Assembly: GCA_002717515.1 (NCBI GenBank)
Contig: PBEC01000018.1
Coordinates: 262,630 to 326,629, forward strand
Length of the DNA: 64,000 nucleotides
DNA from: Flavobacteriales bacterium
Lineage (GTDB): Bacteria > Bacteroidota > Bacteroidia > Flavobacteriales_C > GCA-002722245
Direction: 5' to 3'
Shown one piece after another: positions 4,878 to 9,975 of this stretch (position 1 is the first letter of the stretch; each line of letters opens with the position of its first letter). Under the pieces are notes generated by a model, which worked only from the letters and a program-made list of their open reading frames with translations, was not told the DNA's origin and did not search any database. Made by a program: the position numbers and the translations under genes.

Positions 4878-6805
<1,928 letters not shown>

Positions 6806-6842
6806 TTTTCTAAATATTTAGGTTATAAAATTTTGTTTTACT

Positions 6843-6859
6843 TAACACTTTATGTGCCA
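6843..6859 (-). promoter_or_regulatory. Possible sigma-54-like promoter of groES
   Basis: The minus strand reads TGGCAC-N5-GTGTT. The -24 box TGGCAC is perfect, but the -12 box differs from TTGC at two positions. It lies about 40 bases before the groES ATG. The activator of this sigma factor is encoded about 2 kb upstream. This is a weak call, given because the context makes it worth testing. Confidence 0.3.
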
Positions 6860-6892
6860 TTCTAAATTGAGCATAAAAATAGTCTTTTTGTA

Positions 6893-6956
6893 CGTCAGTT
6901 TTACTGATTAAAAGCTATTGCCAATAAATATTGTCAGCCGAAATGACACACTGACG
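6893..6956. repeat. Nested inverted repeats upstream of groES
   Basis: An inner dyad TGTCA-N7-TGACA lies at 6932-6948. An outer pair CGTCAG (6893-6898) and CTGACG (6951-6956) shares the same TCAG/CTGA core. The inner dyad is about 130 bases from the groES start, the usual position of an upstream activator or repressor site. The binding protein is unknown. Confidence 0.5.
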
Positions 6957-6973
6957 CATTTTCCGAGAGCTAC

Positions 6974-7270
6974 TTAATTATCTGAATTATCAAAGTTATC
7001 GCTTTGTTCAGTTTGATATTGATCAGTCACATTTTGTTGACTTGAGGAACTAGATGAAATAGATTTAGTAGAGATGATGCATAAAATAGCCAAAGCACCT
7101 ATCAAGTACCACGTTACTTTTTCTACGATTTCAGTAGTTTTTTTTGCTCCGAAAGATTGGTTTTGTGATGCTATGTTAGCGTCTAAACCACCACCCTTAC
7201 TGTTTTGAATAATTACCACTAACACTAGCAGTACACAAATAATTATAATTAAAATACTTAAAAAAGTCAT
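6974..7270 (-). CDS. secG: Preprotein translocase subunit SecG
   Basis: This 98-residue inner-membrane protein has two transmembrane helices (about residues 3-22 and 53-71). They flank the family hallmark IQNSKGGGLDANI and the conserved FGAKKTTE loop. SecG assists SecYE and SecA in moving proteins across the inner membrane. The C-terminal tail is Ser/Gln/Asp-rich and not conserved. ATG at 7270 lies nine bases after the upstream TPR gene's stop, so they are co-transcribed. The partner secA is at 36.6-39.9 kb of this window. Confidence 0.93.
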   Translation of the reverse strand: MTFLSILIIIICVLLVLVVIIQNSKGGGLDANIASQNQSFGAKKTTEIVEKVTWYLIGALAILCIISTKSISSSSSSQQNVTDQYQTEQSDNFDNSDN

Positions 7271-8224: not shown

Positions 8225-8716
8225 TTACCATTCCATCAATGTTTCATTGTATACTAAATCTACTAGTTTTTTTGATATAGACTCCATTAATTCGTCCTCA
8301 ATTGAGGAAAAGTCTTCAGTTGCTTTGAAGTTGTCGTAAGATTCAAACGTTTTATTAAAGTCTTGATCTCCATTTTCAGAGTTTGTATATGTTATTTTAA
8401 TTGAAATGGTTAAACGATTCAAAGCTACTATATCACTTCCCGTACCTTGCTCGGGAGTTATTGTATATCGTGTAATTACGCCTGTAAATTGAGCATCTCC
8501 AATACCGTTTGTGTACTTTAAATTGGACTCATTCGTGAATTTTTCTTGTAATGCGTCTTGCAGTACAATGGCTAAATTAGGATTAACCAATGAAGCCGTA
8601 TTCGTAATGCTTTCAATGCTAAAGGTTTGCCCTGGTATTTCTCCTCCTCTGAAGGAATAACTTACCTTACAACCTAATGCAACAATGGTAACGAGAATTA
8701 AAAGCAGATTTTTCAT
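8225..8716 (-). CDS. lptE: LptE-like outer-membrane lipoprotein
   Basis: This 163-residue lipoprotein has a signal peptide and lipobox ending at C16 (VALGC). The GEIPGQTFSIESITN segment, followed by a mixed alpha-beta domain of about 130 residues, matches the LptE family of Bacteroidota. LptE plugs the LptD barrel and helps place lipopolysaccharide in the outer leaflet. Its ATG overlaps the stop of the upstream sigma-54 activator gene by four bases (ATGA), so the two are translationally coupled. The identification rests on motif pattern and conserved context; sequence identity in this family is low. Confidence 0.75.
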   Translation of the reverse strand: MKNLLLILVTIVALGCKVSYSFRGGEIPGQTFSIESITNTASLVNPNLAIVLQDALQEKFTNESNLKYTNGIGDAQFTGVITRYTITPEQGTGSDIVALNRLTISIKITYTNSENGDQDFNKTFESYDNFKATEDFSSIEDELMESISKKLVDLVYNETLMEW

Positions 8717-9975
8717 TGTTGAATATTGTATTCTTTTATTTTTCGATAAAGTGTTCTTTCTGAAATACCCAATTCCTTTGCAGCGTTTTTTCTTCTGCCT
8801 CTGTGTTTTTCAAGTGCTTTGATGATGAATTCCTTCTCTCGTTCCGCTAAAGATAAACTTTCTTCCACCACTTCATGGCTCTCGTCAAAATCATCTTGAT
8901 TGGCATCCTGCTCAAAATTAGGGTTGACCTTCATTGGAAAAGTAGGGTGATCTTGAGTGGGGGCTACATCAGAGTTTAAGTGCAAACGCTGATAGGCTTT
9001 TTCAGTATCACCAACGTTTCCTCTGTTTCTCACTAATTCAGCAACAACCCCTTTTAAATCTCCAAGTTCTTTTTTCATGTCAAAAAGAGCTTTGTATAGA
9101 ATTTCACGTTCTTTTTTCCATTCGGACCCTTCAAAAGACTCGTGTTCATTTTCATTTACACCAATAATAACAGGTAGGTTAGAGGAGCTTGCTTCGGGAA
9201 GATATTTTAAGAGTTGGTTGCGAGTAACCAAACGATTTTCTTCGATTACTGAAATTTGTTCAGCAATATTTTTTAGTTGTCGAATATTTCCTGGCCACCG
9301 GTAGTTTTCTAAAATCTCTTTTGATTCATCGTCCAAACGAAGTGGAGGCATTCTATATTTTTCTGCTAAGTCGATTGAGAATTTTCGAAAAAGTAAGTAT
9401 ATGTCTTCTTTTCTTTCTCTCAACGAGGGAACTTTAATGGGAATTGTATTTAAACGATAATACAAATCTTCGCGGAATTTCCCCATTTTTATGGCCTTAG
9501 GAATATCCAAATTGGTTGCCGCAACAATCCTTATGTTTACTTTTTGTACTTTGGAAGATCCAACTTTTATAAACTCTCCGGCTTCCAGGACTCTGAGTAA
9601 ACGAGCTTGAGTACTCATTGGTAATTCTCCAACTTCGTCTAAGAATATAGTACCATTGTTGGCAACCTCAAAATAACCTTTTCTCTGATCTACAGCTCCT
9701 GTAAAGGCTCCTTTTTCGTGACCAAATAGTTCTGAATCAATAGTTCCATCTGGAATTGCACCACAGTTGACGGCTATAAAGTCGTTGTGCTTTCTTTTAC
9801 TTTGAAAGTGTATGATTTTCGCAAAATTTTCTTTACCAACTCCACTTCCTCCGGTTACTAAAACAGATAGGTCAGTGGGAGCTACCTGCATAGCTATATC
9901 TATTGCATCGTTGAGCAATTTTGAATTCCCGATTATTCCAAATCGTTGTTTTATGCCTGTAAGCGTTGCATTCAT
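8713..9975 (-). CDS. Sigma-54-dependent activator, no receiver domain
   Basis: This 420-residue AAA+ enhancer-binding protein activates sigma-54 RNA polymerase. The ATPase starts almost at the N-terminus: Walker A GGSGVGK (42-48), the sigma-54 contact loop GAFTGA (89-94), Walker B FLDE (111-114), and a downstream arginine finger region (FREDLYYRLN). The C-terminal ~45 residues form a Fis-type helix-turn-helix (AAKELGISERTLYRKIKEY). No receiver or sensor domain precedes the AAA+ core, so it resembles PspF. Between AAA+ and HTH lies a ~130-residue, poorly conserved linker. It is coupled to lptE, secG and groESL downstream and follows miaB closely, suggesting a role in envelope or protein-folding stress (inference). 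Confidence 0.9.
   Translation of the reverse strand: MNATLTGIKQRFGIIGNSKLLNDAIDIAMQVAPTDLSVLVTGGSGVGKENFAKIIHFQSKRKHNDFIAVNCGAIPDGTIDSELFGHEKGAFTGAVDQRKGYFEVANNGTIFLDEVGELPMSTQARLLRVLEAGEFIKVGSSKVQKVNIRIVAATNLDIPKAIKMGKFREDLYYRLNTIPIKVPSLRERKEDIYLLFRKFSIDLAEKYRMPPLRLDDESKEILENYRWPGNIRQLKNIAEQISVIEENRLVTRNQLLKYLPEASSSNLPVIIGVNENEHESFEGSEWKKEREILYKALFDMKKELGDLKGVVAELVRNRGNVGDTEKAYQRLHLNSDVAPTQDHPTFPMKVNPNFEQDANQDDFDESHEVVEESLSLAEREKEFIIKALEKHRGRRKNAAKELGISERTLYRKIKEYNIQQ

Follow-up and report, generated by a model that had tools for sequence, protein, structure and literature searches.

A conserved sigma-54-type promoter and phased TGTCA half-sites upstream of groESL in Bacteroidota, with a linked candidate activator

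In many bacteria, groESL and dnaK are controlled by HrcA/CIRCE, the CIRCE element having the consensus TTAGCACTC-N9-GAGTGCTAA. The groESL operon of Bradyrhizobium is under NifA control, and the NifA box reads TGT-N10-ACA. PspF, the phage-shock EBP, for which structures have been solved, exemplifies the sensor-less AAA+ activators (EBPs) that carry a C-terminal Fis-type HTH.

Closer to the organism studied here, mapped transcription starts with a sigma-54-type motif (SM4) lie before groES-groEL, dnaK, grpE-dnaJ, htpG, and lon in F. psychrophilum (PMC9723704, Table 2A). According to the part of that study considered here, these chaperone starts share one co-expression cluster, and the activator was left open by the authors, with three PF00158 proteins present. 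For Bacteroidota at large, promoter scoring found groES, groEL, dnaK, dnaJ, and grpE enriched as predicted sigma-54 targets, and the B. thetaiotaomicron groES is called sigma-54-dependent in the portion of the source used here (PMC12316311). The sigma-54 promoter type at groESL in Bacteroidota is, in short, known already; what our analysis adds is an array of phased half-sites common to these genes, together with a likely activator. Our search of the open-access PMC literature found no description of a TGTCA enhancer, of phasing, or of an activator for these chaperone genes.

We analyzed a 64-kb stretch of DNA, here called the window, from a Flavobacteriales genome (G000; 2.64 Mb, 91.9% complete). 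Its groESL genes stand at the end of the following minus-strand order, which includes a gene for a sigma-54 activator:

11483-9981, minus strand: miaB-like gene, first in the minus-strand gene order
8713..9975, minus strand: sigma-54 activator (EBP) gene, encoding an AAA+ domain, AAA lid, variable linker, and Fis-type HTH
8225..8716, minus strand: lptE-like gene (PF04390), directly after the EBP gene
between the lptE-like gene and secG, minus strand: gene with weak TPR matches
6974..7270, minus strand: secG, co-directional upstream neighbor of groES
6952..6956, minus strand: variant half-site CGTCA, 97 bp from the T of the -24 box, about 3 bp off the mean phase
6944..6948, minus strand: TGTCA, a half-site that precedes the -24 T by 89 bp and is in phase
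6932..6936, minus strand: TGACA, a half-site that precedes the -24 T by 77 bp and deviates from the mean phase by about 1 bp
6893..6897, minus strand: TGACG, a variant half-site that precedes the -24 T by 38 bp and deviates from the mean phase by about 1 bp
6844..6859, minus strand: sigma-54-type promoter TGGCAC-N5-GTGTT, with the -24 box TGGCAC at 6859-6854 and GTGTT at 6848-6844
6530..6805, minus strand: groES (Cpn10), start at 6805
4878..6515, minus strand: groEL (Cpn60)

The promoter element TGGCAC-N5-GTGTT, which the initial annotation had placed about 40 bases before groES, is present on the minus strand at 6859-6844 and ends 38 nt before the groES ATG; its -24/-12 spacing predicts a transcription start near 6833. 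The ten-base spacing is exact and TGGCA is present at -24, with GT (G at 6846, T at 6845) rather than GC as the -13/-12 letters. In the window itself, the pattern TGGCAY-N6-YG occurs at chance level (3 seen, 3.16 expected), so that the comparison with relatives had to decide. The window's genome encodes rpoN (PF04963 at G000:C1:73834-74409), a gene that was not found in 3 of the 149 genomes sampled from the class.

For this comparison, groES was found in 147 of the 149 class genomes, and 87 groES upstream regions from 63 families were compared: those of the 10 genomes in two genera that make up the family sample (G000 included), 28 best GroES matches, that of a reduced genome (G032), and 48 covering other families. 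Since 28 of the 87 were chosen as best matches, the sample is not random, and related genomes are not independent of one another. A further set came from a separate collection, as the best 80 of at least 586 confirmed groES stretches; this named set includes Flavobacterium cucumis, Algoriphagus, Chitinophaga, and Dyadobacter, and two of its loci (L278 and L283) repeat loci of the class sample.

The strict pattern TGGCAY-N6-YG lies within 110 nt of the groES start in 78 of the 87 regions, whereas 50 dinucleotide-shuffled sets gave 0.5 such regions on average and at most 2; it precedes groES in 58 of the 63 families. Among the nine regions lacking it are six with weaker or variant sites (L024, L025, L037, L115, L116, and L126), the two loci of family f37, and a second groES copy (L147). 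Our conservation claim rests on this strict pattern; a position score under which the best site reached at least 13 in 86 of 87 regions was rejected as too loose, having no shuffle control and passing both f37 regions. Within the named set (best 80 of 586), the strict site is found in 58 of 80 loci, 56 of which also have half-sites (56 of 78 and 54 of 56 when the two repeated loci are removed); it is missing in 22, some of them with near-matches and some apparently without any site. The promoter is thus significant through its conservation, not from the window sequence alone.

The initial annotation had also called the -12 box poor, an assessment that the relatives do not bear out: GT is ordinary among the 78 matched groES sites, occurring in 16, alongside GA in 43 and GC in 19. 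Within the genus, G001, G002, and G004 have TGGCA[CT]-N6-TGC, in which exactly ten bases separate GG from GC; G003, like the window, has GT at -12.

These data bear on the possibility that groESL is instead read from a sigma-A promoter or by read-through from secG, the TGGCAC match being a product of chance. The chance-level frequency of the pattern in the window and the GT letters at -12 would fit such an arrangement, as would a TAnnTTTG element at 6998-6991, within secG. That element is, however, the nearest one: none occurs on the minus strand from groES to 6990, and hence none between the dyad and groES, and over the whole window TAnnTTTG appears as often as chance predicts (89 seen, 91 expected). 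A sigma-70-type scan of 6700-7100 gave 3 weak matches against 1.4 expected, none of which falls in the groES-dyad interval on the minus strand. Given also the conservation of the sigma-54 site in the class regions and in the named loci (best 80 of 586), we judge sigma-A transcription or read-through to be extremely improbable.

Upstream of the promoter, TGTCA-N7-TGACA at 6932-6948 is confirmed as the sole exact match in the 64-kb window, with 0.07 expected and one present in 7 of 100 shuffles. Its two arms are real, while the palindrome that the initial annotation saw in them is better described as one arrangement of a flexible half-site array than as a fixed element. A fixed palindrome was rejected because pair spacings vary among groES regions, where we counted direct repeats 8 bp apart 21 times, inverted pairs at 12 bp 8 times, and inverted pairs at 20 bp 7 times. 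The outer CGTCAG/CTGACG pair, likewise proposed at the outset, is present; rather than one long dyad, it more plausibly represents a pair of additional variant half-sites, at distances of 97 and 38 bp from the -24 box. The CGTCA at 6956 sits 8 bp upstream of TGTCA, 8 being the commonest pair spacing in groES regions, and in the genus alignment G001, G003, and G004 have TGTCA at its column; TGAC at the 6897 site is invariant in all five members. The block TGTCAG-nn-TGTCA...GCTGACA forms a conserved island in the same alignment. The proposal, which by its own terms would have failed without conservation of the dyad in relatives, passed this check, given the island and the half-sites conserved over the class.

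For the class-wide half-site counts, both f37 regions (L040 and L043) and the second groES copy L147 were left out, reducing the 87 regions to 84. All 84 of these usable regions contain TGTCA or TGACA within the 120 bases preceding the -24 box, where shuffles predict 23.3, and so do all 62 regions of a set reduced to one per family (16.2 predicted). The top 6-mer upstream of groES promoters is TGTCAG/CTGACA (63 of 84, 4.2 expected), and the top two 5-mers are the overlapping words CTGAC/GTCAG and TGACA/TGTCA. In a control stretch 300 to 420 bases upstream of groES at the same loci, TGTCA/TGACA was found in 15 of 84 regions against 17.3 expected, and TGTCAG/CTGACA in 7 of 84 against 3.9 expected. 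The same words lead upstream of dnaK and htpG, where TGTCA/TGACA is present in 42 of 43 (10.3 expected) and 21 of 24 (6.3 expected) regions, respectively.

Inverted half-sites could also form a hairpin, and the dyad might then be only the intrinsic terminator of the secG operon. Consistent with such a role, a hairpin from half-sites followed by a T-run is found in 12 of 41 regions that have secG upstream, compared with 2 of the 43 where no secG was detected (Fisher p = 0.003), and the hairpin of L019 folds at z = -5.3. The window region, however, has no terminator-like site and an ordinary fold (z = -0.42), and half-sites are present in all 84 usable regions, including the 43 without detected secG upstream, as well as before dnaK and htpG. 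We therefore consider it very improbable that the dyad is solely a terminator. In all, a half-site pair forms a hairpin with a T-run in 14 of 84 groES regions (e.g., L019, L022, L028, L102, L114, and L121); in these hairpin-bearing regions, which do not include that of the window, the enhancer seems to double as the secG terminator, the two sharing bases.

The spacing of the half-sites relative to the -24 box has a period of about 10.5 bp, which sets them on one face of the DNA helix. Measured from the start of TGTCA to the T of TGGCA, the spacings concentrate around 17, 27, 38, 48, 59, 69, 79, and 89, some half-sites lying only 15 to 28 bp upstream of the -24 box. With one groES region per family (n = 91 TGTCA), the Rayleigh R is 0.61 at 10.5 bp (p of about 3e-15), the best period being 10.4; before dnaK, R is 0.66 at 10.5 bp with a best period of 10.7, and in the named set (best 80 of 586) R is 0.76, or 0.75 without the two repeated loci, with a best period of 10.4. 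When one half-site was drawn at random per promoter, R was 0.59, 0.63, and 0.68 for groES, dnaK, and the named set, against maxima of 0.43, 0.46, and 0.42 in 20,000 random draws for the same three sets. For htpG, the best period is 8.6, not 10.5; with its half-sites at 16 to 18 and 25 to 27, htpG by itself gives no support for 10.5. Ranked by n*R^2, TGTCA comes first in each set among 5-mers with at least 15 occurrences. Phasing also appears in unrelated 5-mers, whose median n*R^2 (expectation about 1) comes to 3.9, 6.2, and 4.6 across these sets. Upstream of groES and dnaK, A- and T-tracts too keep clear phase with the -24 box; before dnaK, AAAAA even reaches R 0.71 against 0.66 for TGTCA, which leads there by n*R^2 only. 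Since unrelated words and A/T-tracts share the phasing, the upstream stretch as a whole carries a helical pattern, of which TGTCA is the strongest element. The p-values for phasing assume an independence that related genomes do not have, and the recurrence of phasing in other genes and collections is a better argument. Separately, the phased A- and T-tracts before groES and dnaK suggest intrinsically bent DNA.

The promoter and its half-sites are common to several chaperone genes. With a wider pattern, TGGCA-N7-YG within 130 nt of the gene start, sites were found before groES in 78 of 84, dnaK in 43 of 46, grpE in 21 of 29, and htpG in 24 of 31 loci, against shuffle means of 1.5, 0.7, 0.5, and 0.4; the grpE figure refers to 29 of 32 loci, L189 and L198 (no match) and L204 (too short) having been left out. 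Half-sites accompany 78 groES, 42 dnaK, 13 grpE, and 21 htpG promoter sites, TGTCA thus accompanying fewer grpE sites than those of the other three genes. G000 itself has sites before dnaK (L239), grpE (L240), and htpG (L241). The groES and dnaK sites, together with 23 of the 24 htpG sites, have C or T after TGGCA, and 20 of 21 grpE sites have A or G (e.g., L240, L191, and L196), so that the TGGCAY pattern misses them. The use of grpE as a negative control was rejected, as this gene has its own TGGCA[AG]-N6-YG sites; its upstream stretch contains half-sites in 14 of 29 loci against 6.0 expected.

A composite of half-site and promoter, searched in five genomes of the genus, gave 15 matches, of which 4 lie before groES, 3 before dnaK, 2 before htpG, and 1 before a lipoprotein-like gene; the other 5 fall within coding sequence. 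The reversed-pattern control is nearly equal (14 against 15 in the genus, 4 against 5 in G000), so the count is uninformative and the signal lies in the identity of the genes matched. At L351 (G000:C18:165368-165464), half-site and promoter lie 101 nt from the start of the lipoprotein-like gene, a possible extra target. Sequence comparison, then, shows conservation of the promoter and half-sites, a motif common to several chaperone genes, and helix phasing.

The distribution of HrcA and CIRCE adds a natural exchange. HrcA (PF01628) matches were found in 3 of the 149 class genomes, all of family f37, and none in the other 146, G000 included. The absence of CIRCE before groES that the initial annotation reported for the window holds to within 4 mismatches. 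The two f37 groES regions compared (L040 and L043) lack a strict sigma-54 site and contain CIRCE, one with 1 mismatch and the other with 2; no CIRCE match closer than 6 mismatches occurs in the remaining 85. In this one family, judging by these sites, the sigma-54 site is exchanged for HrcA/CIRCE. The f37 genomes still have an EBP match.

At the other extreme stands G032, a genome of 489,825 bases and 21.8% G+C that keeps rpoN and in which tblastn finds a single EBP, HTH-bearing and beside a miaB-like gene. This EBP (L083, G032:150054-151262) has GSFTSA instead of GAFTGA and an intact LGISERTLYRKIK helix. Of 14 strict promoter matches in G032, only two fall outside ORFs longer than 150 aa, and these lie 63 nt before dnaK and 56 nt before groES. 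A looser pattern (135 sites) adds two at promoter distance, before lon (identified by Pfam) and before an ORF named by eye as ribosomal protein L3, where the site is perhaps a chance match. The G032 groES site has two exact half-sites, the dnaK site a variant but no exact TGTCA, and the lon site none.

Our data also point to a candidate activator. As proposed in the initial annotation, a sigma-54 activator is encoded about 2 kb upstream: the protein at 9975-8713 combines PF00158, an AAA lid, and a GAFTGA loop with a Fis-type HTH (PF02954, residues 376-416), and a domain search found no sensor domain in it. Its score stays below the cut-off for each of the 25 NCBIfam families listed. Of the 149 class genomes, 147 have a match to it at E <= 1e-70, and the two without one (G056 and G100) also gave no groES match; in 12 of the 147 the match has no C-terminal part, and one of these, in G063, may be a paralog. 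Across 69 aligned EBPs, in which the window's gene is included twice (also as L046), the recognition helix LGISERTLYRKIK is conserved to at least 90% per column, against an average of 32% in the linker. The loop is GAFTGA in the window; its second letter is mostly S in the aligned set (52 of 69).

Within the family, the linked EBP is present in 10 of 10 genomes, and in 9 of them no other strong PF00158 protein with an HTH was seen; G009 has an additional EBP with HTH (L371), and G001 a third EBP fragment that is cut off before the C terminus. A receiver-AAA+ protein that ends after the AAA lid, without HTH, occurs in 9 of 10 family genomes (L001:1246-2421 and L354-L361), the HTH being judged absent by Pfam for L001 and by reading for L354-L361. 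These comparisons point to the linked EBP as most likely the activator of the groESL promoter, an assignment made by elimination and neighborhood in a genome only 91.9% complete. The conservation of its recognition helix and the exchange with HrcA/CIRCE in one family are themselves features of the sequences compared.

In another scenario, a different regulator, e.g., a repressor, would bind the half-sites, and the EBP that drives the sigma-54 promoter would do so from solution or from sites elsewhere. Half-sites 15 to 28 bp upstream of the -24 box are close enough to touch polymerase, and the second EBP without HTH in 9 of 10 family genomes would act without DNA binding of its own. On the other hand, the half-sites are the most enriched k-mers upstream, leaving no better candidate for the enhancer, the linked EBP has an HTH with almost no variation, and the sole EBP found in G032 is the HTH-bearing one. 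We consider a different regulator rather unlikely.

Considering these data, we hold it to be quite probable that groESL has a sigma-54 promoter and an enhancer of TGTCA half-sites, with the linked EBP as its likely activator. The activator site that the initial annotation had proposed upstream of a sigma-54 promoter is supported by the class-wide conservation of promoter and half-sites and by the HTH-bearing EBP nearby. In our model, RNA polymerase carrying sigma-54 would transcribe groESL from the -24/-12 element at 6859-6844, beginning near 6833. An AAA+ activator would be required and would bind the TGTCA-type half-sites (6956, 6948, 6936, and 6897) located 38 to 97 bp upstream of the -24 box, and this activator would most likely be the sensor-less, HTH-bearing EBP encoded at 9975-8713. 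The same EBP would drive groESL, dnaK, htpG, grpE, and, in some genomes, lon across most of the class, its system filling the place held elsewhere by HrcA/CIRCE. We infer from the comparisons that the promoter would be used in the window's organism, that the EBP would bind TGTCA, and that induction would follow, with heat or misfolded-protein stress as the presumed signal. As a guess, the sensor-less EBP might be switched by its own level or by the binding of free chaperone.

There are about even chances, in our estimate, that this scenario extends further, with the EBP as the heat-shock master activator in almost the whole class, which we take as Bacteroidia from its named relatives and from the two named loci that repeat class loci. 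It would act with sigma-54 through phased half-sites, some 15 to 28 bp from the -24 box, on groESL, dnaK, grpE, htpG, and in some genomes lon; it would be ancient and important enough to have been kept in a 0.49-Mb genome, exchanged for HrcA/CIRCE in one family, and perhaps be switched by its own chaperones. The 146 of 149 class genomes without a match in a search confined to HrcA raise the question of how this group controls its chaperone genes, and our analysis supplies one candidate gene, one motif, and one helix-phase rule. If true, a sigma-54 enhancer of phased half-sites, some of them 15 to 28 bp from the -24 box, would be unusual, because the common view of such activators has them working at greater distances through looping.

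The locus finds its nearest counterpart in F. psychrophilum, where locus tags place an EBP-lptE pair (0733-0732) next to groES-groEL (0729-0728), as in the window (PMC9723704); in the part of that study considered here, unlike in the present analysis, we found no activator-site motif and no phasing. THC0290_0733-0732 is listed there under another motif, SM5 (PMC9723704, Table 2B), and the level of the EBP may itself be regulated. The portion of PMC12316311 that describes the sigma-54 regulon was found to contain no enhancer motif and no activator assigned to chaperone genes, and it calls GAFTGA invariant in EBPs, whereas the second letter is mostly S in our aligned set.

The window's EBP shares with PspF the sensor-less AAA+ layout and the C-terminal Fis-type HTH. 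It differs in its long variable linker and its targets, and against the PspF family model TIGR02974 it scores 265.4 bits, below the cut-off of 443.55. As in Bradyrhizobium, a groESL operon would be under sigma-54 and an EBP, but the window has TGT-N11-ACA in place of the ten-base spacing of the NifA box, and half-site spacing elsewhere is variable. HrcA/CIRCE, finally, differs in acting through a repressor, and among the 87 groES regions of the class its CIRCE element is confined to the two of f37.
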